From contig NC_015564.1 in the NCBI RefSeq assembly GCF_000214175.1, positions 434,001 through 498,000 of the forward strand: DNA of 64,000 nucleotides, given 5' to 3'. The notes under the pieces were generated by a model that had not been told where the DNA came from, made no database searches, and saw only the letters and a list, made by a program, of their open reading frames with translations. Shown here piece after piece: positions 3,516-24,077 of this stretch (position 1 is its first letter; each line of letters starts with the position of its first letter). This stretch comes from Hoyosella subflava DQS3-9A1. Lineage in GTDB: Bacteria > Actinomycetota > Actinomycetes > Mycobacteriales > Mycobacteriaceae. Made by a program: the position numbers and the translations under genes.

Positions 3516-7469
<3,954 letters not shown>

Positions 7470-7488
7470 TCAGTAGCAGATCCACAAC

Positions 7489-7521: not shown

Positions 7522-7602
7522 GTGATTTCTGGTCATGAGTGGTCAGTTATGCGCGAGATACAGCGCAGATTTCTATACATAACCGCCCACTTGCGAGGGG
7601 GC

Positions 7603-8448: not shown

Positions 8449-8512
8449 GATCTTTACCTTTGATTATGTCAGCACGCTGTCATAAGCCTAGGAAGAAGCT
8501 GGCAATCGCGCT

Positions 8513-9259
8513 CTAGTGCAGCGGCAGAACCATTGCCTGTGCATGAACTTTTCCGCCCACGGTGAACCATATTGTGAGGTCCTTCTCGCCGTGGCGTGTG
8601 CGGAGCAGAACCTCGTCGTCGGGGGCTATGGGAACGAGATACTCAATGACGGTGCGGGTGGGCACCTCGTGCAGTTCGGGTCGCGTGCGAAGCGCCGCAT
8701 CGACAGCCTGCAGGTACATGGCATTGTTGACGTGCGCCATCACGTCGATGTCGGTACTCCGCAAGGGGAAGGGTGTGACAGCGTCGTCAGGGTCGGGGGA
8801 GTCGCTAATCCACTGTTGCCACCTGAGGCGTGAGGTCAGCGCCGTATCGCTGAGGAACTTCTCGAACCGGTCCGTGATGCGGGCGGGCCTGAGGGTTTCT
8901 GCGTTGAAGTTGATCCAGAACCCCTCGGTCTCGACGAGTCCGCCATCGTCAGTGGTCATCCGCACTCGCATGGAGCACCAGCGGCTGGAAAGTCCGGAGC
9001 ACCACCGGTTGATGTGGACAAGGCTGGGGAACTCAGGCGGCTGGATGACATCGATGACAGATCTCCGCACGACCCAGGCGGGGTGCTCTGCGCGCGCGTC
9101 GACGGCATCGAGGTGGTCGAACCCGGCGTCCTGAAGGTACCGTGCGATCCCGTCGAGCCGAAGACGCCGATTCCTGTCAACGTCACCGGCCCGCATAGGC
9201 CAGTTGGTCATGAAGACATGGCCGTCGTGGGGGAGCGGCATCAAAGGAGTGTCGAGCAT
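8513..9259 (-). CDS. Acyl-ACP thioesterase-like protein
   Basis: About 248 aa with two hotdog halves, as in the FatA-like acyl-ACP thioesterase family. The first half carries RAGDVDRNRRLRLDGIARYLQD and the second DIDVMAHVNNAMYLQAVD, where Asn and the nearby His/Asp are the usual active-site region. Predicted role: hydrolysis of acyl thioesters in the cytosol. I chose the ATG at 9259 because AGGAG (9265-9269) lies 5 nt upstream. The ORF could begin at 9289, ten codons earlier, but that would overlap the preceding phosphatase gene and lacks an equivalent site. It lies 16 nt downstream of the phosphatase gene, so co-transcription is likely. The substrate is unknown. Confidence 0.82.
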   Translation of the reverse strand: MLDTPLMPLPHDGHVFMTNWPMRAGDVDRNRRLRLDGIARYLQDAGFDHLDAVDARAEHPAWVVRRSVIDVIQPPEFPSLVHINRWCSGLSSRWCSMRVRMTTDDGGLVETEGFWINFNAETLRPARITDRFEKFLSDTALTSRLRWQQWISDSPDPDDAVTPFPLRSTDIDVMAHVNNAMYLQAVDAALRTRPELHEVPTRTVIEYLVPIAPDDEVLLRTRHGEKDLTIWFTVGGKVHAQAMVLPLH

Positions 9260-9275
9260 GGTGGCTCCTGGGTGA

Positions 9276-9812
9276 CTAGCGCGGAACATGGAACTTGTCG
9301 AGCCGGGCGGCGCCGCGATCGAGTTGATCCCAGCGCCGGGTGGTTGTCAGCACAGCGATCGCCGAGGTGTGGAACTTGCTGCGCATCTGGTCGGCCTCGT
9401 CACTGTCATCGTTATCGGCCAGCCACAGAGCGGTCTCCGGGATGCCGGGCCAGTGGGCAATGACGAGGAGCGTCTGGCTGTCCTCGCCGATGAGTCCAAC
9501 CTCTTCAGCGATTATCTCAGGATCTGCGCCATAGAGACTCTCAAGGTACTCCACGGGCGCGTCGATCCCCGATGCCGCGAACGTCTCCCGGGTGCGTACC
9601 GCCGACGAGCACAGCACATGGTCGACTGGAGCGGTTGCTTGCTGGAGCCACGAGCCCCCCAATGCGGCTTCCCGTTGACCGCGCGGCGCGAGGGGCCGGT
9701 CGTGGTCTGGAACACCATCCGGATAGGCCGACTTGCCGTGACGCATGAGGATGAGGGTGCGGCGAGATTCCATGACTTTCCAGCGTAGCGGCAGCGGGGT
9801 GGCAGAGGTCAC
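9276..9812 (-). CDS. SixA-like histidine phosphatase
   Basis: 178 aa of the histidine phosphatase superfamily. The phospho-acceptor histidine is His25 in the RHGKS motif, followed by DHDRPLAPRG and a SSAVRTRET segment typical of SixA-type enzymes. A later IAHWPGI holds the second active-site histidine. Family members remove phosphate from phosphohistidine proteins or small phosphoesters; the target here is unknown. The GTG start at 9812 is backed by GGAGG six bases upstream. An in-frame ATG at 9773 (MESRRTLIL) with a weaker GGAAAG site is the alternative and would give a more typical short N-terminus. Confidence 0.83.
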   Translation of the reverse strand: MTSATPLPLRWKVMESRRTLILMRHGKSAYPDGVPDHDRPLAPRGQREAALGGSWLQQATAPVDHVLCSSAVRTRETFAASGIDAPVEYLESLYGADPEIIAEEVGLIGEDSQTLLVIAHWPGIPETALWLADNDDSDEADQMRSKFHTSAIAVLTTTRRWDQLDRGAARLDKFHVPR

Positions 9813-9835: not shown

Positions 9836-10786
9836 TTACGAGGCGAGGGCGAAGGCCGGGGCATGGAGCGCCCGGCGCAAAAGATGAGCGAGCGCGTGCG
9901 CCACGACCTCAGCTCGTTCAAGGATGACCGAATGGCCCGCACCCTCAACACGTACCAGGTCCGCGGCGGGAAGCGCGGAGGCTAGGGCTGCTGAGTGATG
10001 GAAGGGCGTCATATGGTCAGCAGTGCCGCACAGCACCAACGCTGGGATCTCCCGTAATGCGGGGAGGGCCAACGATTCGTTGAGATGGAGCAAAGACCGC
10101 AGAAAACCGATCTTGGTGGCGAGCGTGGTCTCGTTCACCATGGCCGTGACCAGCGAGGTCACGTGCGGGCTGACGCGCCCCTCTCCGAACGCAGTGGCGC
10201 GGATGATGTGCCTGGCGATGCGACGGCTGAGCCGGTGCGGAATCTCCATGAGAGCGGGCGCGCGGTCGACTGCACGGTGCAGGAGGTGCGCCAGCGGATG
10301 GCGGAGCAACTGGCCGACACCCGCGTCGGTGAGGCCATGGGATGCTGTGGCGATCAGGCCAACGCCGATAATGCGTTTCCCGATCGTATGGGGGAACTGG
10401 CGCGCATAGGACATCGCCGTCATCCCGCCCATCGAGTGCCCGACGAGAACTACGGGGCCATGCGGCGCCACCGCGCGGAGTACAGCATCGAGGTCGCGGC
10501 CGAGTTGGTCGATGGTGTACGTCCCGGCCGGCGCGGAGCCCGACTCACCGTGGCCACGGTGGTCGTACGACACCATCCGGATGCCGTACCCGAGCGTCCC
10601 GGAGAGGTGTTCGCGGAGCGCGGACCATGAGTCTGCCCGCAAGCAGTGACCGTGAATGAAAACGAGGGTGAGGTGCGCGGAGCGGTCACCACATTCGGTG
10701 ACAGCGAGCGGCACGCCGTCGTCGCTCAGAACCATACTGCGCTCAATGCGGGGATCGGCCCGAAACATCGCCGTTGACGTGCTCAT
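9836..10786 (-). CDS. Alpha/beta hydrolase
   Basis: 316-aa alpha/beta-hydrolase fold protein. Visible elements are the oxyanion segment FIHGH, the DHRGHGES strand-turn, the nucleophile elbow GHSMGG (Ser118), the acid Asp in GTADHMTP and the histidine in GAGHSVILER, so the catalytic triad is complete. No signal peptide is seen. It may act on a lipid or acyl ester because its neighbours handle acyl-CoA and acyl-ACP thioesters, but that is context only. It lies 142 nt downstream of the thiolase-like fusion gene and 23 nt upstream of the phosphatase gene, all on the minus strand. Confidence 0.85.
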   Translation of the reverse strand: MSTSTAMFRADPRIERSMVLSDDGVPLAVTECGDRSAHLTLVFIHGHCLRADSWSALREHLSGTLGYGIRMVSYDHRGHGESGSAPAGTYTIDQLGRDLDAVLRAVAPHGPVVLVGHSMGGMTAMSYARQFPHTIGKRIIGVGLIATASHGLTDAGVGQLLRHPLAHLLHRAVDRAPALMEIPHRLSRRIARHIIRATAFGEGRVSPHVTSLVTAMVNETTLATKIGFLRSLLHLNESLALPALREIPALVLCGTADHMTPFHHSAALASALPAADLVRVEGAGHSVILERAEVVAHALAHLLRRALHAPAFALAS

Positions 10787-10928: not shown

Positions 10929-13900
10929 TCACCGGCCAGACCATCGAGGGGCGCGTTTCTCGTCGAAGGCGCAGATACCCTCAGCAGCGTCATCGGAGAA
11001 CGAAGCGGCAGAGGCGATCTCACTTTGCCTGCCGAATGCCTCCGGCACTGGCCACCCAGGCGACTCGTCGACGATTCGCTTGCTGAGCTCTACGGAGAGG
11101 GGTGCGCTCTCGGCGATGACGTTAGCCAGGTTCCTGGCCACTTGCGCCGCATCACCGGGCGCGCACAGCCGATTGATCAGCCCGAGTTCGTACGCACGCT
11201 GTGCGGAGATAGGGGCGCCGGTGTACGCGAGTTCCAGCGCGATCGCGCGGGGCAGACGTTGCGCCAGTCGCAGTACTCCGCCCGCAGCCGCGACGAGGCC
11301 GCGGCGAGCTTCGGGCAGCCCAAACAAGGCGTCCTCAGCTGCGACGACAAGGTCACAGGCCAGGGCGAGCTCGAAACCGCCGGCCAATGCGTTTCCCTCC
11401 ACGGCGGCGATCACTGGTTTGACCGGTGGTGTGCCGGTGAGGCCGAGCAGTCCTCGCCGTGGTGTCACTGGGAACTGTCCTTTTGCCGCAGCTTTCAGAT
11501 CCATGCCGGTGCAGAAATCAGTGCCGGCGCCGCGCAGGATGGCAACGCGCGCATCGGGGTCGGCCTCAAACGTATCGATCGCCCGCTCGATTTCTAGAGC
11601 GAGGGCCAGATCGATGGCGTTGCGCACCTGGGGACGGTTGAGGGTGATCACGCATAGTGGGCCGTCCCACTCGACCGTCAGGGAGGGAACGTGCGCCGCT
11701 GCCGTGGAGAGAAGGCGGTCCCGTGCCGTCCCGGTGCTGGTGTTGCGGTGTGCGCCCAGGCTGGAGACTGCACCATCGGTCAACGTGAATGTGGTGTCAA
11801 GAAGGTCTGTCGCTTCACCGAGCGCGACGTATTCAGCTTCGGTTGTGCGCGCGAGTACTCGGTCGCCGTCCACGGCGATACCGCTGACGATCAGTGCCTC
11901 TGGACTGCCGTTGCTCTGATACGTGACCGTGTAGCCCTCGACTAGCGCTTCGCCGCTGTAGCTCGTGCAGACTCGGCGTTTCGGTGGGCGGCGCATACGC
12001 AGCCCCGCGTCGATCTGCCGGAACGGTTCTCGCGGCGGCTGGGCCGAGTAGATTCCAATCGCATGTTTGGTGGCGTACCAGCCGAGCGCGGTTGCGAGGC
12101 CGTAGGCGGCGGGTTCGTTGCGCAGCTGTGTGGCGAGCGCAGCGATCCCGTGGGTGCTGTAGTTGTTGAGCGGCCCGCCCGCGAAGGTCAGCCCACCTGT
12201 CTGGGTGAGCGGCCGCGCAGGATCGTCGAGAGGCAGGGAAAGCTGCTGCGCGGCAGCTTCGACCGCGAACGGGAAGCACGAGTAGAGATCGAGGTGCGTG
12301 ACGTCATCGATTGTCAGCCCCGCGTGGGCGAGTGCAGCGCGGGCCGCCGCTCCGATCGCGGGAACCTCGGCGATGCTGTGGCGCTCGGATACGTACCATT
12401 CTTCTTCCGCATGCGCGGCTGCGTGAATGAAAACCCAGTGCTGTGGCGGTATTCCCGCCGCCGCGGCGGAGTCAGCGCTGCACAGTACGAGCGCGGCCCC
12501 CTGGTCGACGGTGAGGTTCGCCGTCATCAGTTTGGTGTAGGGACTCGCAATGGGACGGTTGTCTGCAGCGTGGTCAGCGATCCGTTCGGGCGAATGGTAT
12601 TCGGGCAGCCAGGCGAACCGGTTCTTGGTGGCAGCGGCCGAGAAACGCGACCACAACGAACTTATGGCGGTGACATGTTCTCGGATGTCCCGTTTGAGGG
12701 CACCTCGAAGCGCGGATTCCATGAGTGCGTACATGGGTGCGGGCGTGAGTAGTCCGGCCGCGTTCTCCGCCTCGTTGTTCCCGGGCCGGTCGGATCCCAC
12801 CCGCCGGGGCGCTCCCGCCCCGCTGTGCGGGCGATCCCATTTGGGCGCGGCCCCGGACTTCTGCGCGATCGCGAGTGAGGCGAAAGCTTCGGCACCTGCG
12901 ATGATGGCGACGTCGAGTTGTCCCTCGCTGATCGACTGGGCCGCATCGCTGACCAGCCGTTGGGGTGCGTCACCGCCAAGCGGTGCGGACTGGACCAGCT
13001 CAGCGTCATCGATTCCAAGCTGCCGGGCAAGAAGGGCCGCCTGATCGTCACCGTATGCCCACGACACTGTCGAGACGGCACTGACGCGCACCCTGCTATC
13101 GAGTAAGCGAGCATTACCGGCATCTTTGATTGCGATTCTGGCTGCATGCGCTGCCAGTTCGAGCGGCGACTGAATTGTGTCGGCGCTATCCGGACGGTGG
13201 ACCGTCTGACCGATTCCGACGAGGACTGGCGCCCACGGGTCGACCAGTTTTCCGGAGGGCGCGTGGAGTACAGGCTTGGGGCGGGGGCCGGAGGGCGGAG
13301 GAATCTGACGGGTGACAGCCCGGGATTGTCCGGTGCTGGAGGGTTCAGGTGGCGCGCCGGTAACGAGGCTAGTGAGGTTTCCCAGCGCTTCCTTGGTAGC
13401 TGACTGGAGTGTGCTGGCAACCAATGAACCCATAGGTCCTTTGAGCGCATCGCTGTGAAACCCGCCGGTCACTGAGAGTTCTGTCCCTGCTGGGGTTTCT
13501 TTTGCACCGAACCAGATGCCGACGGAGGTGCCCATCGGCCCGGTACCTTCGATCGCGAAAGCGGCGGGCGGCGCGTAATGGGTCACTGTCCACTGCACGC
13601 GAGCGGGGGTTCCAAGGACTCGAACGTCTTCAGTGTATTGCGAGCCACTCGTGACCTGCGCGGGCGCTCCGTTGGGCCAGTCAGCATGGAGCGTGAACCA
13701 CTTCCCGAAGCTCTTGAAGTCGAGCACGCGCTCCATGATCTCGTCGGGCTGTGCCGTGACCAGCGCGGTTTCGCCAAAGGTGTGTGCGAAGTCGCGGGAG
13801 AAATGAGCCTCGGTGGGTGCAGCGCTGTGGGGTGCAGCTTCGCGCTGCAGCAGGGACCGAACTGACGCCTCCCCGATGATTCGTGCAGTGCGCATCGGCA

Positions 13901-13967
13901 TCAGTGGGTCCTGCCTGACCATGCGCAGAGCGTGCGCGACATTCCTGCGGACGCGTTGAGTAACCAA
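10929..13967 (-). CDS. SRPBCC / thiolase-like (TLP1) / enoyl-CoA hydratase triple fusion
   Basis: 1012 aa in one uninterrupted frame. Residues about 60-205 resemble a SRPBCC (START-like) lipid-binding domain. Residues 245-645 resemble mycobacterial thiolase-like protein type 1, shown by DLYSCFPFAVE and GGLTFAGGPLNNY; where thiolases carry the nucleophilic Cys this protein reads APLGGDAP, so thiolase chemistry is doubtful. Residues 655-745 match the extra C-terminal TLP1 domain. Residues 760-1012 are a crotonase with oxyanion segments DFCTGMD and GNALAGG and both catalytic glutamates (Glu866, Glu886), so hydratase activity is expected. The TTG start at 13967 follows GGAAGGA at 7 nt spacing. 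It is divergent from the acyl-CoA carboxylase operon across a palindrome and probably belongs to the same pathway. Confidence 0.82.
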   Translation of the reverse strand: MVTQRVRRNVAHALRMVRQDPLMPMRTARIIGEASVRSLLQREAAPHSAAPTEAHFSRDFAHTFGETALVTAQPDEIMERVLDFKSFGKWFTLHADWPNGAPAQVTSGSQYTEDVRVLGTPARVQWTVTHYAPPAAFAIEGTGPMGTSVGIWFGAKETPAGTELSVTGGFHSDALKGPMGSLVASTLQSATKEALGNLTSLVTGAPPEPSSTGQSRAVTRQIPPPSGPRPKPVLHAPSGKLVDPWAPVLVGIGQTVHRPDSADTIQSPLELAAHAARIAIKDAGNARLLDSRVRVSAVSTVSWAYGDDQAALLARQLGIDDAELVQSAPLGGDAPQRLVSDAAQSISEGQLDVAIIAGAEAFASLAIAQKSGAAPKWDRPHSGAGAPRRVGSDRPGNNEAENAAGLLTPAPMYALMESALRGALKRDIREHVTAISSLWSRFSAAATKNRFAWLPEYHSPERIADHAADNRPIASPYTKLMTANLTVDQGAALVLCSADSAAAAGIPPQHWVFIHAAAHAEEEWYVSERHSIAEVPAIGAAARAALAHAGLTIDDVTHLDLYSCFPFAVEAAAQQLSLPLDDPARPLTQTGGLTFAGGPLNNYSTHGIAALATQLRNEPAAYGLATALGWYATKHAIGIYSAQPPREPFRQIDAGLRMRRPPKRRVCTSYSGEALVEGYTVTYQSNGSPEALIVSGIAVDGDRVLARTTEAEYVALGEATDLLDTTFTLTDGAVSSLGAHRNTSTGTARDRLLSTAAAHVPSLTVEWDGPLCVITLNRPQVRNAIDLALALEIERAIDTFEADPDARVAILRGAGTDFCTGMDLKAAAKGQFPVTPRRGLLGLTGTPPVKPVIAAVEGNALAGGFELALACDLVVAAEDALFGLPEARRGLVAAAGGVLRLAQRLPRAIALELAYTGAPISAQRAYELGLINRLCAPGDAAQVARNLANVIAESAPLSVELSKRIVDESPGWPVPEAFGRQSEIASAASFSDDAAEGICAFDEKRAPRWSGR

Positions 13968-14010: not shown

Positions 14011-14034
14011 AAGAAGCAAGCATGCTTGATTCTT
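14011..14034. promoter_or_regulatory. 24-bp near-palindrome, candidate TetR-type operator
   Basis: A perfect 12-bp core CAAGCATGCTTG (14017-14028) is extended by AAGAAG and ATTCTT flanks, so 22 of 24 positions are symmetric. It lies between two divergent genes, 43 nt from the TTG at 13967 and 57 nt from the ATG at 14092. Size, symmetry and position fit a TetR-family dimer site. The TetR gene at the end of the plus-strand operon is the obvious candidate regulator, which is inference. Confidence 0.6.
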
Positions 14035-14091
14035 TTGCGATTCGGTGTCACTCTTGTCTCATATACCTATGGCAAACCGAAGGTGGATTGG

Positions 14092-14901
14092 ATGTCTGAT
14101 CCTGGCCGGCTAGTGGCCGAAGTTGTCGATGATCTTGACGCCGAAAGTGATGCGCTTGACGCATTGGTCGCTGACCTCCCGGAAAGCGCCTGGAGCACAC
14201 CGACACCAGCGGAAGGATGGACTATCGCGCACCAGATCGGCCACCTTGCGTGGACCGATGATGCGTCGATCGCCGCCGCTACCGACCCGGAGCGCTTTCA
14301 GGAGATAGTCACACTCGCATGGTCGAATCCAGCGGGTTTCGTGGACGAAGCGGCAGCGGAATGGGCAGCTGCTCCACCCGGCGAGCTGCTCGCGAGGTGG
14401 CGCAGCGGTCGAGCGCAGCTGTCCAAAGCGCTGCGCAACACTGAGCCAGGCACGAAGCTTCCGTGGTTCGGGCCGCCAATGAGTCCGGTGTCCATGGCAA
14501 GCGCCCGGATGATGGAAACCTGGGCCCACGGCCTCGACGTCGCGGACTCGCTGGACGTGGATGTGCAGCCGACCAGCCGTCTCAAGCATGTCGCACATAT
14601 CGGTGTGCGTGCACGGGACTTCGCGTTTGCGCTCAACCAGCTAGAGGCGCCCAAAGAGCCGTTCCGGGTAGAGCTGACAGCCCCGGACGGCACCATCTGG
14701 AGCTGGGGCCCAGAGGACGCCAGCCAGCGCGTCACAGGCACCGCACTCGACTTCTGCTGCCTCGTCACGCAGCGTCGCAATATCACCGAACTCGACGTCG
14801 GCGCCACTGGTCCAGATGCCGAGAAGTGGCTCACCATCGCGCAGGCCTTCGCAGGCCCGCCCGGAAAAGGTCGCGAACCGCAAGCGACAACGAACTCGTA
14901 A
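14092..14901 (+). CDS. TIGR03084 family metal-binding protein
   Basis: 269 aa with a DinB/maleylpyruvate-isomerase-type four-helix domain. The N-terminal half holds the HQIGHLAW motif and a later histidine ([11 protein letters not shown]), the usual metal ligands of this fold; the C-terminal part is a small alpha/beta domain. Related enzymes use mycothiol, but the TIGR03084 family reaction is not established. The ORF opens at 14026, but that upstream TTG falls inside the palindrome. The ATG at 14092 (MSDPGRL) has AAGGTGG upstream and matches the family start. First gene of the operon; the next gene starts 16 nt after its stop. Confidence 0.8.
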
Positions 14902-14917
14902 CGGAGCGAAGGAACAC

Positions 14918-16648
14918 ATGGCTGCATCTCCCTTACCACCTCCCATGATCCGGGTCGGCAACTGTTCCGGCTTTTACGGTGACCGCATCTCCGCTATGCG
15001 CGAAATGCTCGACGGCGGAGACCTCGACTACTTGACCGGCGACTACCTGGCCGAGCTCACGATGCTCATCCTTGGCCGCGACCGCATGAAAGACGCCAGC
15101 CTCGGGTACGCGAAAACGTTCGTGCGGCAAATGGAAGAGTGCATGTCGCTCGCCCTCGAACAAGGCGTGAAGATAGTTGCTAACGCCGGTGGGCTGAACC
15201 CTGCAGGTCTGGCCGCGAAGCTCTCCGGCATCGCGGAGAACCAGGGCCTGAAAGCAAAAATCGCGTACGTCGAGGGAGACGACCTCCGGGAACGTGCGCA
15301 AGAACTCGGCCTCGGCAGCCCCTTGACCGCGAACGCCTATCTTGGTGCCTTCGGAATTGCGGAGTGCCTCAGAAACGGCGCCGACATTGTGGTTACGGGC
15401 CGGGTAACTGACGCCTCAGTGATCGTCGCGCCTGCGATCGCAGAGTTTGGCTGGTCGCGCACCGACTTCGATCAGCTCGCAGGTGCCGTCGCAGCTGGCC
15501 ACGTCATCGAATGCGGCACCCAGGCGACCGGTGGCAACTACTCCTTCTTCAGGGAAATTTCCGACATGAGCCGCCCCGGCTTCCCTATCGCGGAAATCTT
15601 CCCGGACGGTTCCAGCGTGATCACCAAGCATGATCACACCGGCGGCGAAGTCAGCATTGGCACCGTCACCGCTCAGCTCCTCTACGAGATCAGCGGCGGG
15701 CGATACGCCGGACCCGACGTCACCACGCGAATGGACACCATCAAATTAAGCGATGACGGTCCTCATCGCGTCCGCCTTTCCGGCGTGAAGGGTGAAGCTC
15801 CGCCACCAGACTTGAAGGTCTCCCTGAACACGCTCGGTGGATTCCGCAACCAGGCCGACTTCATTGTCACTGGCCTCGACATCGACGCCAAGATCAAACT
15901 CGCGAAGCAGCAGCTCGAGGCGTGGCTGACCAAGCCTCCCGCTGAACTGCGGTGGGAGGTGTCAGGCACGGCGCGCGAGAACGCGCCCACCGAAGAGCAA
16001 GCGAGTTCGATCCTCCGCTGCATCGTGAAGGATATGGACCCGAAGATTGTCGGGCGCTCCTTCACCAGCGTCGCTGTCGAACTTGCGCTCGCGAGCTACC
16101 CGGGCTTCGCGCTGACCGCTCCTCCGGCTGATGCGCAGCCCTACGGGCTGTTCACGCCGGGCTACGTGCCCCAGGAGAGCGTCCCGCACGTGGCTGTTCT
16201 CGCGGACGGACAGCGAGTCGATATCGCACCTGCGCCGGAAACACGTCCACTCGAGGACGCCCCCGAATCCAGCTTGCCCGCCAAACCAGCAGTGACTGAA
16301 ACGCGCCAGGCGCCGCTCGGTGCCATCGCTGGGGCACGCAGCGGTGACAAGGGCGGTGACGCCAACGTTGGAGTATGGGTGCGCACCGACGAGGAGTTCG
16401 AGTGGCTCGCCCACACCCTCACCGTCGACGCCCTCAAAAAGCTTCTTCCAGAAGCTGATGGGATGACCGTCCGCCGCTACCCCCTTCCGCACCTGAAAGC
16501 CATCAACTTCGTCATCGAAGGCATTCTCGGCCAGGGCGTGGCCTCGCAGGCGCGTTTTGATCCACAAGCCAAGGGACTCGGTGAGTGGCTGCGGTCCCGT
16601 CATCTCGATATCCCCGTTGCCCTCCTCGACGCCGAAGGAAACGAATGA
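14918..16648 (+). CDS. AtuA-like DUF1446 protein
   Basis: 576 aa. The N-terminal DUF1446 region opens with IRVGNCSGFYGDR and holds ANAGGLNP, TGRVTDASV and CGTQATGGNY. The C-terminal 110 residues, beginning IAGARSGDKGGDANVG, form the smaller AtuA ferredoxin-fold-like domain. Pseudomonas AtuA is needed for acyclic terpene utilisation but its reaction is unknown, and related genes accompany acyl-CoA carboxylase operons in mycobacteria. The ATG at 14918 follows GAAGGA; upstream in-frame codons belong to read-through of the previous gene. The stop overlaps the next start as ATGA. The symbol is withheld because the pathway is not proven to be terpene degradation. Confidence 0.85.
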   Translation: MAASPLPPPMIRVGNCSGFYGDRISAMREMLDGGDLDYLTGDYLAELTMLILGRDRMKDASLGYAKTFVRQMEECMSLALEQGVKIVANAGGLNPAGLAAKLSGIAENQGLKAKIAYVEGDDLRERAQELGLGSPLTANAYLGAFGIAECLRNGADIVVTGRVTDASVIVAPAIAEFGWSRTDFDQLAGAVAAGHVIECGTQATGGNYSFFREISDMSRPGFPIAEIFPDGSSVITKHDHTGGEVSIGTVTAQLLYEISGGRYAGPDVTTRMDTIKLSDDGPHRVRLSGVKGEAPPPDLKVSLNTLGGFRNQADFIVTGLDIDAKIKLAKQQLEAWLTKPPAELRWEVSGTARENAPTEEQASSILRCIVKDMDPKIVGRSFTSVAVELALASYPGFALTAPPADAQPYGLFTPGYVPQESVPHVAVLADGQRVDIAPAPETRPLEDAPESSLPAKPAVTETRQAPLGAIAGARSGDKGGDANVGVWVRTDEEFEWLAHTLTVDALKKLLPEADGMTVRRYPLPHLKAINFVIEGILGQGVASQARFDPQAKGLGEWLRSRHLDIPVALLDAEGNE

Positions 16649-17823
16649 CATCCACCGCAAGTACGGCAGCCTGGCCCTCGCGAGCGTTGTGGGACAGCCC
16701 CGAACGCCAGGAACTCCGCAAGACCGTGCGCCGCTTCACCGAACAGCACATCCTTCCCCACCAGGATGAATGGGAACGCGCTGGCGAACTGCCACGGTCG
16801 CTGCACAAGAAGGCCGGTGACCTCGGGCTCCTCGGTGCTGGGTTCCCCGAATTCGCCGGTGGCGGTGACGGCAATCTGATCGACGCCATGATCGTCGCGG
16901 AGGAACTTTGCTATTCCGGAGCTGCGGGGGGCCTTCTCGCGTCGCTCTTCACCCACGGGATCGCATTGCCGCACATGATCACTGCAGGAAACCCGGACCA
17001 CATCGAGAAATGGGCCAGGCCGACCCTGGACGGTGAGCTGATCGGTTCACTCGCAATCACCGAACCAGGCGGTGGTTCGGACGTCGCGAACATGCGCACG
17101 ACGGCGCGGCGCGACGGCGATGAGTTCGTCATCAACGGCTCGAAAACCTTCATCACCTCCGCGGTACGCGCCGATTTCGTGGTCACCGTGTGCCGCACCG
17201 GGGACAAGGGACAGCTGTCGCTGATCGTCGTGGAAAAAGGCACTCCCGGCTTCACCGTCGCCCGCAAGCTCGAGAAAATGGGCTGGCTGTGTTCGGACAC
17301 CGCGGAACTGCATTATGACGATGTTCGTGTGCCGGCAGCGAACCTGATCGGTGAAGAACACAGTGGATTCACCCAGCTTGCTCAGGGGTTCGTCACTGAA
17401 CGCGCGGCACTTGCCGTGCAGGCTTACGCGAGCGCCCAGCGCTGCCTGGATCTGACACTGCAGTGGTGCCGCGACCGCGAGACTTTCGGGCGGCCCCTCA
17501 TCAGCCGGCAGGCTGTGCAGGCGACGCTATCGGAGATGGCCCGCAAGATCGACATCGCACGGGTGTACACCCATCAGCTGATCGAGCGTTTCACGTTCGG
17601 TGACGGTGACCTCATCGCGGAAATGTGCTTTGCGAAGAACACCGCCGTGGAATCAGGGGAGTGGGTCGCTCACCAGGCTGTGCAGCTTTTCGGCGGCATG
17701 GGATACATGCGTGAAAGCGAAGTCGAGCGGCAGTACCGCGACATGCGCCTCCTCGGGATCGGCGGCGGCACGAACGAGATTCTCACAGGACTTGCAGCTA
17801 AGCGATTGGGGTTTAAAGCATGA
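16645..17823 (+). CDS. Acyl-CoA dehydrogenase (FadE13-like)
   Basis: 392-aa flavin-dependent acyl-CoA dehydrogenase with the three usual regions: an N-terminal helical domain, the FAD/substrate segment SLAITEPGGGSDVANMRTTA, and a C-terminal helical domain with QLFGGMGYMRES. At the common C-terminal base position it reads IGGGTNEI, without Glu. A Glu in FVTERAAL occupies the place used by isovaleryl-CoA-type enzymes, suggesting a branched substrate (family-based inference). The ATG overlaps the previous stop (ATGA, 16645-16648), showing translational coupling. Order and similarity match FadE13 of the mycobacterial accA2/accD2 operon. Confidence 0.88.
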   Translation: MTSTASTAAWPSRALWDSPERQELRKTVRRFTEQHILPHQDEWERAGELPRSLHKKAGDLGLLGAGFPEFAGGGDGNLIDAMIVAEELCYSGAAGGLLASLFTHGIALPHMITAGNPDHIEKWARPTLDGELIGSLAITEPGGGSDVANMRTTARRDGDEFVINGSKTFITSAVRADFVVTVCRTGDKGQLSLIVVEKGTPGFTVARKLEKMGWLCSDTAELHYDDVRVPAANLIGEEHSGFTQLAQGFVTERAALAVQAYASAQRCLDLTLQWCRDRETFGRPLISRQAVQATLSEMARKIDIARVYTHQLIERFTFGDGDLIAEMCFAKNTAVESGEWVAHQAVQLFGGMGYMRESEVERQYRDMRLLGIGGGTNEILTGLAAKRLGFKA

Positions 17824-19418
17824 CAGCTCTGCAATCAGCCCTCGACACCGCTTCAGAGGAGTTCGCCGTCGCGAAAGAGGCGATGATCACGAAGCTCGGT
17901 GAGGTCGAGGCAGAGTACGACAAAGCCATCGGAGGCGGCGGGCCCGACAAGGTGGAACGGCACCGCAAGCGGGGGAAGATGACCGCCCGGGAACGCATCG
18001 AACTGCTCATCGACGAGGATTCCGCCTTCCTCGAGTTGTGTCCACTCGCCGCATGGGGCAGTGACTTTCAGGTCGGTGCCAGCCTCGTGATTGGCATAGG
18101 CGTCGTCAGCGGCGTGGAATGCTTGATCGTTGCCAACGACCCCACAGTCAAGGGCGGCACCAGCAACCCGTGGACGCTGAAGAAGTCCTTCCGCGCGAAC
18201 GAAGTCGCCTTCCAGAACCGGCTTCCCGTGATCTCACTCGTCGAGTCCGGGGGCGCGGATCTTCCCACCCAGAAAGAAGTGTTCATTCCCGGCGGCCAGA
18301 TGTTCCGGGACCTCACTCGTGCTTCCGCGCTCGGCATCCCCACCATCTCGCTGGTATTCGGCAACTCCACCGCCGGCGGTGCATACATCCCGGGCATGTC
18401 CGACCACGTCGTGATGATCAAGGAACAGTCCAAGGTGTTCCTCGGCGGCCCGCCGCTGGTCAAAATGGCGACTGGTGAGGAATCCGATGATGAGTCGCTG
18501 GGTGGCGCGGATATGCATGCGCGTACATCAGGACTCGCGGACTACTACGCGCTCGACGAGCAGGACGCCATCCGGATCGGACGTGACATTGTGTCGCGCC
18601 TCAACTGGAAGAAGAAGGGCCCGGAACCGAAAACGGAATACGCGGAGCCGCTCTACGAGACGGAGGATCTGCTCGGCGTCGTTCCCAGTGATCTGAAAAT
18701 TCCATTCGACCCCCGTGAGGTCATTGCACGGCTTGTCGATGGCTCTGAATTCGACGAATTCAAGCCACTCTACGGCTCATCGCTGGTAACGGGATGGGCG
18801 CAGTTGCATGGCTACCCGGTGGGGATTCTCGCGAACGCGCGCGGAATCCTGTTCAGTGAGGAATCACAGAAGGCTACGCAGTTCATCCAGCTCGCTAACC
18901 GTTCGAATACACCGCTCCTGTTCCTGCACAACACCACCGGATACATGGTCGGCCGAGAGTACGAACAGAACGGCATCATCAAGCACGGTTCGATGATGAT
19001 CAACGCGGTCTCCAATTCGAAGGTCCCCCACATCTCGCTGCTGATGGGTGCCTCATACGGTGCTGGTCACTACGGCATGTGCGGGCGGGCCTACGAGCCG
19101 CGATTCCTATTCGCCTGGCCCAGTGCGAAGTCCGCCGTTATGGGGCCACAGCAGCTTGCTGGAGTCATTTCGCTGGTCATGCGCGCCGCTGCTGAAGCCA
19201 AAGGCCGCCCGTTCGACGAGGAAGCCGACAAAGGGATGCGCGCCATGGTAGAGGCGCAGATCGAAGCGGAGTCGCTGCCGATGTTCCTGTCGGGACGTCT
19301 CTTCGACGATGGTGTCATCGACCCGCGCGATACACGCACCATCCTTGGTTTATGCCTGTCTGCTATCCACACGAACGAAGTTGAAGGCACAGCCAACTTC
19401 GGCGTATTCCGGATGTGA
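17820..19418 (+). CDS. accD2: Acyl-CoA carboxylase beta (carboxyltransferase) subunit, AccD2-like
   Basis: 532-aa carboxyltransferase that moves carboxyl from biotin onto an acyl-CoA. Both crotonase-like halves are present. The N-terminal half has KMTARERIELL, LVESGGADLP and FGNSTAGGAYIPGMSDHVV; the C-terminal half has LFLHNTTGYMVG, MGASYGAGHYGMCGRAYEP and WPSAKSAVMG. These are typical of methylcrotonyl-/geranyl-CoA-type carboxyltransferases rather than propionyl-CoA ones. The ATG overlaps the previous stop (ATGA) and the gene is followed directly by the biotin-carrying subunit. The symbol rests on operon order equal to mycobacterial fadE13-accD2-accA2-fadE12-echA7. The substrate is unknown. 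Confidence 0.87.
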   Translation: MTALQSALDTASEEFAVAKEAMITKLGEVEAEYDKAIGGGGPDKVERHRKRGKMTARERIELLIDEDSAFLELCPLAAWGSDFQVGASLVIGIGVVSGVECLIVANDPTVKGGTSNPWTLKKSFRANEVAFQNRLPVISLVESGGADLPTQKEVFIPGGQMFRDLTRASALGIPTISLVFGNSTAGGAYIPGMSDHVVMIKEQSKVFLGGPPLVKMATGEESDDESLGGADMHARTSGLADYYALDEQDAIRIGRDIVSRLNWKKKGPEPKTEYAEPLYETEDLLGVVPSDLKIPFDPREVIARLVDGSEFDEFKPLYGSSLVTGWAQLHGYPVGILANARGILFSEESQKATQFIQLANRSNTPLLFLHNTTGYMVGREYEQNGIIKHGSMMINAVSNSKVPHISLLMGASYGAGHYGMCGRAYEPRFLFAWPSAKSAVMGPQQLAGVISLVMRAAAEAKGRPFDEEADKGMRAMVEAQIEAESLPMFLSGRLFDDGVIDPRDTRTILGLCLSAIHTNEVEGTANFGVFRM

Positions 19419-21472
19419 GCGCGATGAATGGAACTGACGAAATGATCGACGTAAAAGACATCAGTCGCGTGCTCGTCGCGAACCGTGGTGAGATCGCTCG
19501 CCGGGTTTTCGCGACGTGCCGTCGTGCAGGTATCGGCACTGTCGCCGTGTTCTCAGACGCAGACGCGGATGCGCCGCACGTGAAGGAAGCAGACTCGGCC
19601 GTGCGGCTGCCGGGAAACACTCCCGGCGAAACATACCTTCAGTCGGACAAGCTCATCGCGGCGGCGAAAGCATCCGGCGCGGATGCGATTCACCCCGGGT
19701 ATGGCTTCCTTTCTGAGAACGCCGAATTCGCCCGGGCCGTCATCGACGCCGGCCTGACCTGGATCGGTCCTCCGGTGAAAGCCATAGAGCTGATGGGGTC
19801 GAAGGTCGAGTCCAAGAAGATGATGGACGCCGCAGGGGTGCCCGTCCTCAACAAACTTGACCCGGACACCGTCACGGAAGGGGAACTGCCTGTCCTCATC
19901 AAGGCATCCGCCGGTGGCGGCGGCCGCGGTATGCGGGTTGTGCGGTCACTCCCCGAACTTCCTGGTGCAATCGAAGCGGCGCGCTCTGAGGCGGGTTCCG
20001 CGTTCGGTGACCCGACTGTGTTCTGTGAGCGTTACCTAGAAACAGGACGGCACATCGAAGTCCAGGTCATGGCTGACCAGCACGGAACTGTCTGGGCCGT
20101 CGGTGAGCGTGAATGCTCCATCCAGCGCCGGCACCAGAAGGTCGTGGAAGAAGCTCCTTCGCCGCTGGTGGAACGGCTCAAGAGCGAAGGCATGCGTGAT
20201 CGCCTGTTCGAGGCTGCACAGCTCGCGGCGAAAGCCATCGACTACGTCGGGGCTGGCACTATCGAGTTCCTGGCTGATGAGACCGGCCATTTCTACTTCC
20301 TCGAAATGAACACCAGGCTCCAGGTCGAGCATCCTGTCACGGAGTGCACCACTGGACTGGATCTCGTTCAGCTGCAACTTGACGTCGCAGCCGGGGCGGT
20401 TCTCGACGCCGAACCTCCCGCTATGCGCGGGCACTCGATCGAGGTCCGCCTCTACGCGGAAGATCCGGCACAGGACTGGCAGCCACAGAGCGGCACGGTG
20501 CACCACCTTGACGTGCCGGGCCTGCGCAGGGAGTTCGAGGTTCTCACGGAACTGGGCGTACGGCTCGATTCCGGCGTCGTCGACGGGTCAGTTGTGAGCG
20601 TTTTCTATGACCCGATGCTCGCGAAAGTGATCTCCTTCGCGCCCACCCGCAGGCAGGCCGCGCAAGTCCTTGCCTCGGCGCTCGCCGGAATGCAGCTGCA
20701 TGGTCTGGTCACTAACCGGGACCTACTCGTGAACATTCTCCGCCATCCGGCTTTCCTCGCGGGTGACACCGACACTGCGTTCTTCACGACCCATGGTCTT
20801 GACGTTCTGTCCGCGCCGATCACCTCTGAAGACGCTGTGGGGTGGGCAGCCGCGGCGGCAGCGCTCGCCGACTCGGAAAACACCCGGGCGGACGCGACAG
20901 TGCAGCGCCGGATTCCCAGTGGCTGGCGCAACCTGCCCGCGCAGCACCAGCGGCGCGTCTACACGACACCTCAGGGGGACCACGAGGTGAAGTACCGCTT
21001 CACCAGGAACGGCCTCTCCGTAGAAGGACACGACGAACTGACGCTTGTGGCCGCCGCGCCCCACGAGGTCATCTTCGAGATCAACGGTGTTCGCAGGCGT
21101 TTCAGTGTTGCCCGGTACGGCGCAATGCGCTGCATCGATTCGCCGCTCGGCCACGCGACGTTCACCGCCGCCCCGCGTTTCGTCGACCCCTCCGCCGAGG
21201 TCGCGGCGGGCTCGCTGCTCGCGCCAATGCCGGGCTCAGTCATTCGTCTCGCTGCCGCTGTAGGGGACCGTCTGACCGCGGGACAGCCCATCCTGTGGCT
21301 CGAGGCGATGAAAATGGAACACACAATCTCCGCCCCGACCGACGGGATTTTGACTGAACTGCCTGTTCAAGCAGGCCAGCAGGTTGATGTTGGCACGGTG
21401 CTTGCCGTTGTCGGCGACGAAGACAACGCGGAATCTATCCAGGAAACCTCCGGAGAAGAGGGACAGAAATGA
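19415..21472 (+). CDS. accA2: Acyl-CoA carboxylase alpha subunit (biotin carboxylase + BCCP), AccA2-like
   Basis: 685 aa. The N-terminal biotin carboxylase opens with VLVANRGEIARRV and carries the ATP-grasp glycine loop ASAGGGGRGMR, then EMNTRLQVEHPVTE. The C-terminal biotin carrier domain has EAMKMEH, with Lys633 as the expected biotinylation site. Together with the preceding AccD2-like subunit it makes a complete biotin-dependent carboxylase. The GTG at 19415 overlaps the previous stop (GTGA); in-frame ATGs at 19424 and 19442 are alternatives, and the conserved domain begins only after the last. The stop overlaps the next ATG. Confidence 0.88.
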   Translation: MSAMNGTDEMIDVKDISRVLVANRGEIARRVFATCRRAGIGTVAVFSDADADAPHVKEADSAVRLPGNTPGETYLQSDKLIAAAKASGADAIHPGYGFLSENAEFARAVIDAGLTWIGPPVKAIELMGSKVESKKMMDAAGVPVLNKLDPDTVTEGELPVLIKASAGGGGRGMRVVRSLPELPGAIEAARSEAGSAFGDPTVFCERYLETGRHIEVQVMADQHGTVWAVGERECSIQRRHQKVVEEAPSPLVERLKSEGMRDRLFEAAQLAAKAIDYVGAGTIEFLADETGHFYFLEMNTRLQVEHPVTECTTGLDLVQLQLDVAAGAVLDAEPPAMRGHSIEVRLYAEDPAQDWQPQSGTVHHLDVPGLRREFEVLTELGVRLDSGVVDGSVVSVFYDPMLAKVISFAPTRRQAAQVLASALAGMQLHGLVTNRDLLVNILRHPAFLAGDTDTAFFTTHGLDVLSAPITSEDAVGWAAAAAALADSENTRADATVQRRIPSGWRNLPAQHQRRVYTTPQGDHEVKYRFTRNGLSVEGHDELTLVAAAPHEVIFEINGVRRRFSVARYGAMRCIDSPLGHATFTAAPRFVDPSAEVAAGSLLAPMPGSVIRLAAAVGDRLTAGQPILWLEAMKMEHTISAPTDGILTELPVQAGQQVDVGTVLAVVGDEDNAESIQETSGEEGQK

Positions 21473-22626
21473 GCTTCGTAGAAACCGAAGAGCAGCGCGA
21501 ACTCCGCAAGGCGGTAGCGGACCTCGGCGAGAAGTACGGCTGGCAATACATGCTCGAAAAGTCGCAGAAGGGTGAGAAGACTACCGAACTGTGGGACGAA
21601 GCAGGAAAGCTCGGCTTCCTCGGGGTCAACCTTCCTGAAGAGTACGGCGGCGGCGGTGCAGGAATGTACGAGCTGTCACTCGTGCTCGAGGAGCTTGCCG
21701 CAGCGGGAACGGGCCTGTTGATGATGGTTGTGTCACCCGCGATCTGCGGCACGATCATTGCTCGGTATGGCACTGAAGAGCAAAAGCAGAAGTGGCTTCC
21801 TGGAATTGCGGATGGCTCGATCACGATGGCATTCGGGATCACCGAACCCGATGCTGGCTCGAACTCGCACAAGATCATCACTACCGCTCGGCCGGATGGT
21901 GATGAGTGGCTGCTGACGGGCCGGAAAACCTACATTTCAGGGATCGACCAGTCGCAGGCTGTGCTTGTGGTTTCCCGCACCGAGGATGCCAAGACCGGCA
22001 AACTGAAGCCCGCGCTCTTCATCGTGCCGACTGATGCCGAGAACTTTGAGTACCAACCCATCGAGATGGGCATCATGAGTCCCGAGAAGCAGTTCACCCT
22101 GTTTTTCGATGACGTCCGCCTTCCGGCCGACGCGCTGGTGGGTTCCGAGGACGCAGGTCTGATGCAGCTGTTCGCTGGGCTCAATCCAGAGCGCATCATG
22201 GCGTCGGCTATGGCGATCGGGATGGCCCGGTATGCGCTGAACAAGGCGACGAACTATGCGAAGGAACGTCAGGTTTTCAAGACCCCAATTGGTGCGCACC
22301 AGGCGATCGCCCATCCGCTCGCGCAATGCCACATCGAGATCGAACTCGCGAAACTGATGATGCAGAAAGCAGCGGTGCTGTACGACTCAGGTGACGACTG
22401 GGGTGCGGCGTCGGCGGCGAACATGGCAAAATACGCCGCCGGTGAAGTGGGAACCAAGACGGTCGACCAGGCGGTACAGACTCACGGTGGAAACGGTCTC
22501 GCGATGGAATACGGCCTTGTGCCCCTGATCGCGGCGTCTCGCCTGACGAAGATCGCGCCAGTCAGCCGCGAAATGATCCTGAACTTCATCGCGCAGGCCA
22601 ACCTCGGTCTGCCGAAGTCGTACTGA
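21469..22626 (+). CDS. Acyl-CoA dehydrogenase (FadE12-like)
   Basis: 385-aa acyl-CoA dehydrogenase, second in the operon and distinct from the FadE13-like one. FAD-binding and substrate segments are visible (MAFGITEPDAGSNSHKI; QTHGGNGLAMEYG). A Glu in LNPERIM stands at the isovaleryl-type catalytic base position, while the usual C-terminal base is absent. A full-length N-terminal helical domain is present. The ATG overlaps the previous stop. Two dehydrogenases in one operon suggest two oxidation steps before and after carboxylation, as in citronellyl-CoA or leucine breakdown; this is inference. Confidence 0.88.
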   Translation: MSFVETEEQRELRKAVADLGEKYGWQYMLEKSQKGEKTTELWDEAGKLGFLGVNLPEEYGGGGAGMYELSLVLEELAAAGTGLLMMVVSPAICGTIIARYGTEEQKQKWLPGIADGSITMAFGITEPDAGSNSHKIITTARPDGDEWLLTGRKTYISGIDQSQAVLVVSRTEDAKTGKLKPALFIVPTDAENFEYQPIEMGIMSPEKQFTLFFDDVRLPADALVGSEDAGLMQLFAGLNPERIMASAMAIGMARYALNKATNYAKERQVFKTPIGAHQAIAHPLAQCHIEIELAKLMMQKAAVLYDSGDDWGAASAANMAKYAAGEVGTKTVDQAVQTHGGNGLAMEYGLVPLIAASRLTKIAPVSREMILNFIAQANLGLPKSY

Positions 22627-22638
22627 TCGGGAGAGGGT

Positions 22639-23445
22639 ATGAGCGAACAACTCGTGCAATATGCCGTTGACGGCGGGATCGCGACGATCACACTCGACTC
22701 GCCGAAAAACCGCAACGCGCTCTCAACGCGACTGGTTCAGGGTGTGTCGGAAAGCTTGCAGTCGGCCGCGCAGGACGATGACGTGCGCGCGGTCGTCCTC
22801 ACCCACACGGGTGGCACGTTCTGCGCGGGTGCTGATTTGCAGGAAGCTGCAGAGTCCGGCGGCGAGCAGTTGGATCCGCTCGAGGTCGCCAAGCTCAGGA
22901 CCAGCCAGATGCGTGATCTGCTGCGTGCGATCGTGGCGCACCCGAAACCCGTGATCGGTCAGATCAACGGTCATGTGCGGGCAGGCGGTATGGGTCTCGT
23001 CGGCGCCTGCGACCTTGTCGCGGCAGGCCCCGACAGTACGTTCGCGCTGACGGAGGCGCGCCTCGGACTGGCGGCGTCGATCATCTCACTGACGCTGCTC
23101 CCCAAAATCGATTCCCGCGCCGCTTCTCGGTACTTCCTGACCGGGGAGAAATTCGATTCGGAGACCGCTCAGCAGATCGGCCTGGTCACGCAGGCCAGTG
23201 CGGATCCAGCTGCGACGGCAACCCATTGGTCGGCGGAGCTGGTCAAAGCGTCACCGCAGGGTTTGCGAGAGTCGAAAGGTCTCACGACGGCGGAGGTTCT
23301 TGCTGGGATTGACCAGCGAGGTGACGAACTTGCGGCCCTTTCGGCACGGCTATTCGCCTCCGAGGAGGCACGCGAAGGGATGATCGCATTCCTGCAGCGC
23401 CGTCCGCCCCGGTGGGCTGAGAAGTACGAGACGGTGGGCCGCTAA
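22639..23445 (+). CDS. Enoyl-CoA hydratase/isomerase (EchA7-like)
   Basis: 268-aa crotonase. The oxyanion-hole segments read GTFCAGADL and GHVRAGGMGLVGACDL. The first catalytic Glu of enoyl-CoA hydratase is not present at its usual place (GMGLVGACD), while the second (LTEARLG) is. This pattern fits methylglutaconyl- or isohexenylglutaconyl-CoA hydratase-like enzymes, which hydrate the carboxylated product of the preceding carboxylase; that assignment is by family and context. A GGGAGAGGG ribosome-binding site precedes the ATG, 12 nt after the dehydrogenase stop. Confidence 0.85.
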   Translation: MSEQLVQYAVDGGIATITLDSPKNRNALSTRLVQGVSESLQSAAQDDDVRAVVLTHTGGTFCAGADLQEAAESGGEQLDPLEVAKLRTSQMRDLLRAIVAHPKPVIGQINGHVRAGGMGLVGACDLVAAGPDSTFALTEARLGLAASIISLTLLPKIDSRAASRYFLTGEKFDSETAQQIGLVTQASADPAATATHWSAELVKASPQGLRESKGLTTAEVLAGIDQRGDELAALSARLFASEEAREGMIAFLQRRPPRWAEKYETVGR

Positions 23446-23447
23446 CG

Positions 23448-24077
23448 GTGACCATCCGCGAACCCCAGCAGGAGCGCAGTCGCGCGACTCATCAGCGCCT
23501 GCTCGAAACCACCATTGAGTGCCTCGCCCAGCACGGCTGGGCGGGTACGACAGTGGGGGTAGTGGCGCAGCGGGCTGGCGTATCGCGCGGTGCCATTCAG
23601 CACCATTTCCCGACCAGGGAAGATCTGATCACCTCCGCGCTCGAGTTCATTTTCGACCAGCGAATGGCGGAAGTCCGGGCCGCCGCCGCAGATCTGCCGG
23701 AGGGCGCCGAGAGAGTTGAAGCAGTGGTCATCCGGTTGGTCGACTACTTCACGGGTGTTCTCTTCAAGGCTGCTCTGCAAGTGTGGACGGCGGCCGCGGC
23801 AGACCCTGCACTGAAGGAACGGGTGGTTCCGCTGGAACTGCGCTTTGGACGGACCGTTCACACGATCGCGATCGAACTGCTCGGCGCCGACGACTCGGAT
23901 CCTGATACGCACCGTCTGGTGCAGGCCACTCTCGACATGGCGCGTGGCTTGGGCCTCGCGGATGTGCTGACAGACGACTCCCGTCGGCGATCGCAAATCG
24001 TTGCCACGTGGGCGCAGCACCTCAGTACTGCGCTCACGCGGGTACGGGCACCCTCGGCCGCGGGGGCGCCGCAGTAA
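23448..24077 (+). CDS. TetR/AcrR family transcriptional regulator
   Basis: 209 aa. The N-terminal helix-turn-helix domain (residues about 8-58) reads RATHQRLLETTIECLAQHGW, then VVAQRAGVSRGAIQHHFPTREDL, the typical TetR DNA-recognition segment. The C-terminal two-thirds is the variable ligand/dimerisation domain. The GTG start lies 2 nt after the previous stop, so it is the last gene of the acyl-CoA operon and probably represses it, with an acyl-CoA or free acid as ligand. The candidate site is the palindrome at 14011-14034. Regulation is inferred, not shown. Confidence 0.88.
   Translation: MTIREPQQERSRATHQRLLETTIECLAQHGWAGTTVGVVAQRAGVSRGAIQHHFPTREDLITSALEFIFDQRMAEVRAAAADLPEGAERVEAVVIRLVDYFTGVLFKAALQVWTAAAADPALKERVVPLELRFGRTVHTIAIELLGADDSDPDTHRLVQATLDMARGLGLADVLTDDSRRRSQIVATWAQHLSTALTRVRAPSAAGAPQ

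Follow-up and report, generated by a model that had tools for sequence, protein, structure and literature searches.

Ltp2 and Sal, the coenzyme A (CoA)-dependent retro-aldolases of steroid systems, are coupled to hydratases, and cleavage by the aldolase helps to overcome an unfavourable hydration equilibrium (PMC11321319). In the bile-acid retro-aldolase CtSal, Tyr302 and Cys304 of the motif YDCY have been proposed to act as catalytic base and acid, and a Gly replaces the thiolase nucleophile; activity was undetectable in the Y302F, C304A, C304S and C304H variants, and the same authors suggested an aldolase function for TbSLP as well (PMC12329534). The thiolase-like TLP1 proteins received a structure and a named fingerprint in 2012, but no assigned function (PMC3406046). 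We analysed a 64,000-nucleotide stretch of the Hoyosella subflava DQS3-9A1 genome, referred to below as the window (NCBI RefSeq assembly GCF_000214175.1, contig NC_015564.1, positions 434,001 to 498,000), in which one gene at 10929..13967 (− strand) joins an SRPBCC/START-type domain, a TLP1-like domain and a crotonase. We propose that its product may be a single-chain hydratase and retro-aldolase for bulky or branched enoyl-CoAs with the START domain as acyl holder, a reading that we place just short of an even chance. It draws on an invariant Tyr562 and Cys564 in the TLP1 domain, the aldolase-like character of that Tyr, the pairing of TLP1 with crotonases, fusions that do not form a single clade, and a catabolic context.

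Domain architecture and active site

The gene is an intact frame of 1012 amino acids (1023 from stop to stop) that begins with TTG and ends in a stop codon at 10929-10931. The TTG start is doubtful: a codon-usage gene caller chose the ATG at 13922 (residue 16) instead, and likewise started a homologue of 96% identity at the equivalent Met. Domain searches and PDB matches bear out the preliminary description of three domains in one protein. The START-type domain (13353..13784, − strand; residues 62-205) is recognised by Pfam Polyketide_cyc2 (residues 63-202, 45.9 bits, cut-off 27.4), by PDB entries 7wa9 and 8h2d and by a conserved Trp, with MSMEG_5634 (7wa9) as the closest PDB sequence for residues 70-201 (1e-15). 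A linker (13248..13352, − strand; residues 206-240) leads to the TLP1-like part, which spans residues 241-740 with its extra C-terminal barrel. It comprises a thiolase-fold domain (12018..13247, − strand; residues 241-650), delimited by alignment to M. smegmatis TLP1 (MsTLP1, PDB 4egv), and the TLP1_add_C beta-barrel (11823..11987, − strand; residues 661-715 by Pfam bounds, 31.8 bits, cut-off 26.1). MsTLP1 is also the closest PDB sequence for residues 238-735 (6e-69); a Thiolase_C_1 match falls below the Pfam cut-off, and residues 242-722 fall in the NCBIfam PRK08257 'acetyl-CoA acetyltransferase' models at E 7.6e-122, under their cut-offs. After a second linker (11682..11747, − strand; residues 741-762), the crotonase (10932..11681, − strand; residues 763-1012) matches Pfam ECH_1 (residues 771-1011, 164.8 bits, cut-off 27) and the full NCBIfam PRK08252 subfamily profile (329.2 bits, cut-off 282), with EchA1 (6ldz) closest in the PDB for residues 755-1011 (1e-69). 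An AlphaFold2 model built with 22 sequences has a mean predicted local distance difference test score (pLDDT) of 79 and a predicted template modelling score of 0.72, with pLDDT below 50 in parts of residues 20-51, in the linkers (206-221 and 742-745) and in short stretches including 593-599 and 887-902.

Conservation in the TLP1 part was assessed in 41 rows, namely the window, 39 of 40 hand-chosen loci (L041-L080; L064 gave no gene) and 4egv, without a motif filter. A larger set of 120 loci combines the window and the 40 hand-chosen loci with 79 from a peptide-pattern search, and some genomes enter it twice because they were retrieved in two ways (e.g. L078/L151 and L042/L111). The pattern-search loci were excluded from the evidence on motif conservation, since one pattern (DLY[SA]CFPxA) itself contains the motif and they are the best 80 of at least 590. 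Mapping through MsTLP1 reproduced the published numbering (YSCF at 330).

At the place of the nucleophilic Cys in the thiolase CxS motif the window protein has Gly332 (12972..12974, − strand), equivalent to Gly102 of MsTLP1 (PMC3406046) and Gly in all 41 rows, so the earlier statement that this Cys is missing stands. The second thiolase Cys, in CxG, is likewise absent, with Leu628 at the base position, where MsTLP1 has Asn395. Three TLP1 features were found: YSCF replacing NEAF, Gly at the nucleophile position, and the TLP1_add_C domain. The fifth fingerprint, NGG for CxG, reads Leu628-Gly-Trp in the window; it had been described from seven TLPs, and our 41 rows have 16 Asn and 23 Leu there. 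As this position varies among proteins with the other TLP1 features, we still call the domain TLP1-like.

The YSCF fingerprint, Tyr562-Ser563-Cys564 (12276..12284, − strand) with Phe565, conforms to the catalytic Tyr motif Y-x-(C/H)-(F/Y) of the Sal, Ltp2 and SLP aldolase type. Tyr562 and Cys564 are invariant (41/41), as are Gly331, Gly332, Arg471, Phe565, Asn601, His606 and Lys634, among 33 fully invariant positions of 495; Ser563 is Ser in 38 rows. In the profile alignment 'DlYSCFPsav' of TLP1 lies over 'fglYdCFPicl' of TbSLP, and the corresponding residues are HDAF in the thiolase 7yvy and HDCF in the thiolase 6esq; a single-sequence alignment sets LYSCF of the window over LYDHF of TcLtp2. 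Tyr in place of His is thus a trait that TLP1 shares with the aldolases and not with the aligned thiolases. Through the Tyr-x-Cys of TbSLP, Tyr562 and Cys564 would correspond to the catalytic pair of CtSal, a link that we infer from these alignments; neither 'TLP1' nor 'YSCF' occurs in the main text of the CtSal paper (PMC12329534).

The crotonase retains both glutamates, as first described: Glu866 (11370..11372, − strand) and Glu886 (11310..11312, − strand; followed by the poorly modelled stretch 887-902) are conserved in all 17 aligned rows with a crotonase. By analogy to rat enoyl-CoA hydratase, we take both to be catalytic.

In the proposed reaction the crotonase would hydrate an enoyl-CoA to a 3-hydroxyacyl-CoA, from which Tyr562 would take the proton of the 3-hydroxyl group, so that the C2-C3 bond breaks; following the CtSal scheme, Cys564 would then protonate the acyl-CoA enolate. 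The products would be acetyl- or propionyl-CoA and an aldehyde or ketone, and cleavage would drive the unfavourable hydration step towards completion, which is why such a coupling makes sense. The role of the START domain would be to keep the acyl chain close to both sites. The most speculative part of the proposal concerns the substrates, which might be tertiary 3-hydroxyacyl-CoAs of branched or terpenoid acids; these would need such cleavage because they cannot be oxidised to ketones.

Acyl binding by the START domain is a reasonable expectation from its relatives, since MSMEG_5634 binds acyl-AcpM with C36-52 chains and its W30A substitution disrupts binding (PMC9014085). The wording of that paper and our alignment together indicate that W30 is the Trp of 'YHEW'; Trp90 of the window protein aligns with it, and the position is Trp in 16 of 17 covering rows and Arg in L046. 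A role of the START domain in mycolate synthesis or fatty acid synthase II was considered and is not favoured, because proteins with all three domains (triples) occur in Nocardioides and Actinoplanes, which are not known to make mycolic acids.

Spread, pairing and phylogeny

All three genus genomes searched, the window's included, carry the triple, and the two other copies (96% and 57% identity) are each one stop-free frame. Within the family, 26 of 301 genomes, again including the window's, have a stop-free match that begins at residue 80 or earlier and runs to residue 1012. These copies rule out an assembly or sequencing artefact, the joining of separate genes by error that the preliminary description had raised. 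Two-domain TLP1-crotonase fusions (doubles) in a stop-free frame occur in at least 27 of the 301 genomes, counting matches at E up to 1e-100 that start between residues 192 and 242 and end at 936 or beyond; three further doubles contain one stop read through by the alignment and are not among the 27. A class-level sample of 296 genomes gave matches at 1e-100 in 27, a figure that includes lone TLP1s. Carriers of triples include Nocardia, Nocardioides, Aeromicrobium, Actinoplanes, Antrihabitans, Thermocrispum and Pseudonocardia, and carriers of doubles include Gordonia, Williamsia, Prauserella, Planotetraspora, Frankia, Caulobacter and Camelimonas. In the Nocardia seriolae triple (L129) a single in-frame stop, located between 5647-7662 and 7666-8715, interrupts the TLP1 part. 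The possibility that the fusion would prove widespread and already characterised was thus borne out for its spread in the genome survey; a literature search at the level of titles and abstracts, with most subscription papers beyond its reach, found no description of it.

Of the 120 loci, 45 are triples and 20 are doubles; 19 have TLP1 and crotonase as an adjacent same-strand pair, 34 have a lone TLP1, and the remaining two are the broken triple L129 and the START-TLP1 protein L047. A gap of 9-65 bases separates the end of the TLP1 frame from the start of the crotonase domain in the 19 pairs. Adjacent genes are found in Nocardia, Methylobacterium and Massilia; on Methylobacterium and Massilia plasmids an acyl-CoA ligase gene directly precedes TLP1 and the crotonase follows, with ends that touch or overlap. 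On Sphingobium and Novosphingobium plasmids the double overlaps a CoA-transferase gene, and it is annotated as 'hypothetical protein' or 'enoyl-CoA hydratase-related protein'. Chance proximity is rejected as a general explanation of this pairing: the 4.86 Mb source genome yields 31 matches to the crotonase region apart from the fusion itself, some of them fragments of one gene, so that a crotonase within a few kb of a gene is expected in a few percent of cases.

A PF18313 search of a phylum sample found TLP1 in 31 of 296 genomes. Among 30 phylum loci (L081-L110), three were fused and three were overlapping pairs; in two more a crotonase lay on the same strand at a distance of 0.5-0.9 kb, and the other 22 showed no crotonase within flanks of 1.5 kb. 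Longer stretches from 20 of these genomes gave the same picture, with one further same-strand run that includes a crotonase (L206). The association of TLP1 with crotonases is thus pronounced in certain lineages and missing from others. The earlier generalisation that the two are usually separate describes the phylum sample (24 of 30 loci), but much less so the family.

A TLP1 tree of 113 rows, with support from the Shimodaira-Hasegawa-like approximate likelihood ratio test only, omits the pattern-search loci L137 and L153, in which TLP1 is broken by stops and the motif is not in the piece read. In one clade starred in the tree (19 rows), 17 of 18 doubles are found, with MsTLP1 and one other unfused protein nested inside; MsTLP1 may accordingly descend from a fused ancestor. 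A second starred clade of 60 rows holds the triples, the Nocardia pairs, the double L150, one lone TLP1, L047 and L129. A single clade of fused TLP1s was rejected by the approximately unbiased (AU) test (p = 1.4e-5; 26 versus 26 rows), and with it a single ancient fusion in that form. When the linked crotonases were set beside seven free ones from the source genome, a single clade of linked crotonases was rejected at AU p 0.0015, a test weakened by the long branches of L168 and L161. As the fused TLP1s are not one clade, fusion probably recurred, with at least two independent events; an old fusion followed by many later splits may be the alternative, being compatible with the clade test taken alone.

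Gene neighbourhood and competing explanations

Downstream of the fusion on the same strand lie, as the next gene, one for an alpha/beta hydrolase (9836..10786, −) and, at 7603-9812 (−), genes for a dioxygenase-fold protein, an acyl-ACP (acyl carrier protein) thioesterase-like protein and a SixA-like phosphatase, the latter set being common, among the compared loci, only to the 96% relative (L041). Divergent from the fusion are a gene for a TIGR03084 (MDMPI-type) protein (14026..14901, +) and a carboxylase-type catabolic cluster (14816..24077, +) that by family matches encodes AtuA, an acyl-CoA dehydrogenase, a carboxyltransferase, a biotin carboxylase, a second acyl-CoA dehydrogenase, a separate crotonase and a TetR protein; here too, only L041 among the compared loci shares the neighbourhood. 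These lipid catabolism genes are set inside a string of core transcription and translation genes, with what we take to be rpoB/rpoC at 3-7469 on one side and the S12, S7, EF-G and EF-Tu genes (within 25657-30160) on the other. Beyond them are two giant frames, at 30595-50877 (6760 amino acids) and 50994-64000 (at least 4335 amino acids, to the window end). The first 1000 residues of each contain condensation and AMP-binding domains and the second also has a carrier domain, from which 30595-64000 is predicted to be a large non-ribosomal peptide synthetase locus.

Among 123 scanned proteins encoded within three genes of triples, TetR (18) and acyl-CoA dehydrogenase (5) were counted, and among 96 scanned within three genes of doubles and four deep pairs, acyl-CoA dehydrogenase (7), TetR (7), aldehyde dehydrogenase (5) and CoA-transferase III (4). 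Within 3.5 kb, an aldehyde dehydrogenase gene accompanies 6 of 20 doubles and 8 of 34 lone TLP1s, compared with about 0.05 expected per locus from the 28 matches in the 4.86 Mb source genome. CoA-transferase III lies within the same distance of 5 of 20 doubles, 6 of 34 lone TLP1s and none of the triples or pairs; both genes adjoin the Frankia double. In one lone-TLP1 operon type, combined from L065 and L066, the order is crotonase, luciferase-like monooxygenase, TLP1, a small protein, DUF35, a second thiolase-like protein, aldehyde dehydrogenase and CoA-transferase III. The second thiolase-like protein (L065 10178-11362, L066 5347-6540) has YENF and a Gly-rich stretch at the possible nucleophile place and, beside DUF35 and TLP1, is a candidate for another aldolase. 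Lone TLP1s often have housekeeping genes nearby (serine hydroxymethyltransferase 9, PrmC N-terminal domain 6 and LacAB_rpiB 6 of 134 neighbour proteins), which suggests a separate core role for them.

The preliminary description read the first two domains as a scaffold that binds a bulky acyl-CoA and presents it to the crotonase; both would then be non-catalytic, with the crotonase as the sole active site. The absence of a thiolase nucleophile and base from TLP1 fits this, as do the large putative CoA groove of MsTLP1, which showed no thiolase activity (PMC3406046), and the long acyl-AcpM bound by the START relative (PMC9014085). Acyl binding by START is the more plausible part of that reading; a TLP1 that merely binds and presents is less well supported, since invariant polar residues (Tyr562, Cys564, Asn601, His606 and Lys634, each 41/41) are unexpected in a passive binder, the Tyr-x-Cys matches the Sal pair, and the 34 TLP1s without an adjoining crotonase would have nothing nearby to present to. 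We consider the scaffold rather unlikely. A catalytic TLP1 might instead decarboxylate a carboxyacyl-CoA, or run in reverse, with aldol addition followed by crotonase dehydration in biosynthetic chain extension. The acyl-ACP thioesterase-like gene downstream and the binding of acyl-AcpM from a synthetic pathway by MSMEG_5634 (PMC9014085) speak for such a reaction. Slow decarboxylation of malonyl-CoA (kcat 0.005 per s, as cited in PMC12329534) has been recorded for TbSLP, which shares the YxCF motif, but CtSal does not catalyse it (PMC12329534). The neighbours of double fusions are, moreover, mostly degradative (CoA-transferase III, acyl-CoA dehydrogenase, aldehyde dehydrogenase). Triples also occur in Nocardioides and Actinoplanes, which are not known to contain mycolates, and on balance a decarboxylating or synthetic TLP1 seems unlikely.

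The divergent arrangement in the window could mean that the fusion serves the AtuA/carboxylase cluster, as hydratase and lyase for a bulky 3-alkylglutaconyl-CoA, much like LiuC and LiuE (3-hydroxy-3-methylglutaryl-CoA (HMG-CoA) lyase) in leucine breakdown. A distant actinobacterial lineage (L206) has TLP1, AtuA, MDMPI and a crotonase on one strand, and TLP1_add_C and AtuA occur together in 23 of 31 TLP1 genomes compared with 53 of 296 overall, counts uncorrected for descent. Adjacency was nevertheless observed in the window, L041 and L206 only: AtuA lies within 3.5 kb of 2 of 45 triples, and 2 of 30 AtuA loci (1.5 kb flanks) touch a TLP1 gene, one being the window's own. A separate crotonase (22639-23445) is already encoded within the cluster, elsewhere the genome carries an HMGL-family gene of its own (331-amino-acid frame), and AtuA itself has tentatively been named the lyase (PMC4847356), so we regard a dedicated role in this cluster as improbable.

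Several results weigh against the hydratase and retro-aldolase proposal itself. VIA-align, which probed mainly the middle domain and hardly the other two, ranked 4egv first (Z 43.0, 1.8 Å over 443 residues), followed by two archaeal thiolases, 7yvy (40.8) and 6et9 (40.0), with TbSLP (38.0), TcLtp2 and CtSal (36.7 each) behind them; an SCP2-thiolase ties with the latter two, and many classical thiolases follow near Z 33-34. Profile alignment likewise puts 7yvy (3.7e-22), 4u4e and 6esq ahead of TbSLP (8.7e-8), Ltp2 (2.2e-7) and Sal (9MYR, 3.8e-4). SCP2-thiolases carry the Cys too (HDCF), so the Cys alone is not diagnostic; the Sal Gln residues have no obvious counterpart in TLP1, whose loop 593-599 is modelled at pLDDT below 50. 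TLP1 has a C-terminal barrel of its own, and MsTLP1 is monomeric. A search with one DUF35 query sequence gave no match in the 3.5 kb flanks of the 45 triples, and we therefore propose that TLP1 acts like Sal and Ltp2 without classing it as a member. Just 3 of the 45 triples and one of the 19 pairs have an aldehyde dehydrogenase gene within 3.5 kb, 24 of the 30 phylum-sample TLP1s are neither fused to nor overlapping a crotonase, and L047, from a family genome, is a START-TLP1 protein without one. Finally, 93% of the intermediate of Sal-Shy was intercepted, indicating no substrate channelling (PMC12329534), so tethering need not channel.

Comparison with described systems

MsTLP1 resembles the window protein in its thiolase fold, TLP1_add_C barrel, YSCF motif and Gly for the nucleophile (35% identity over 443 residues); it differs in that the window protein has START and crotonase parts and LGW where MsTLP1 shows NGG. 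The nearest solved folds after 4egv, the archaeal thiolases 7yvy and 6et9/6esq, have His (HDAF/HDCF) where TLP1 has Tyr, and their nucleophilic Cys is replaced by Gly in TLP1. TbSLP (PDB 5ab4-5ab7; Z 38.0) aligns its YDCF to YSCF, but is a chain of 425 residues without a hydratase or START part. The crotonase shares its family (PRK08252) and both glutamates with EchA1 (6ldz), and is covalently joined to TLP1. For the START domain, the domain match and the helix-2 Trp point to the acyl-AcpM-binding proteins MSMEG_5634 (7wa9) and Rv0910; MSMEG_5634 stands alone, whereas the window domain, compared by sequence, is the N-terminal part of a 1012-residue enzyme. Mycolicibacterium Atf1 was considered as a TLP1 and set aside, being a Sal-like SCP-x protein with 56% identity to Sal1 (PMC10398937).

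More broadly, and with less confidence, TLP1s might form an additional class of CoA-dependent retro-aldolases next to Ltp2 and Sal, with the fusion enabling many actinobacteria and a number of proteobacteria to shorten branched or bulky acyl-CoAs without thiolysis. The repeated pairing with crotonases and the catalytic Tyr-x-Cys of CtSal (2025) reduce the question of TLP1 function to one assay. If the proposal is true, it would reveal a widespread route of C-C cleavage and a naturally covalent hydratase-aldolase for biocatalysis. The closest parallels would then be CtSal-CtShy (9MYR) and TcLtp2-ChsH1-ChsH2 (6ok1), in which a thiolase-fold aldolase with a catalytic Tyr has a hydratase partner; CtSal also shares with the window TLP1 the Cys of Tyr-x-Cys and the Gly for the nucleophile. 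Those steroid systems consist of separate chains with a MaoC hydratase attached via DUF35, whereas the fusion would be a covalent hydratase-aldolase in one chain, with a crotonase instead of MaoC/DUF35 and an additional START domain as putative acyl holder.

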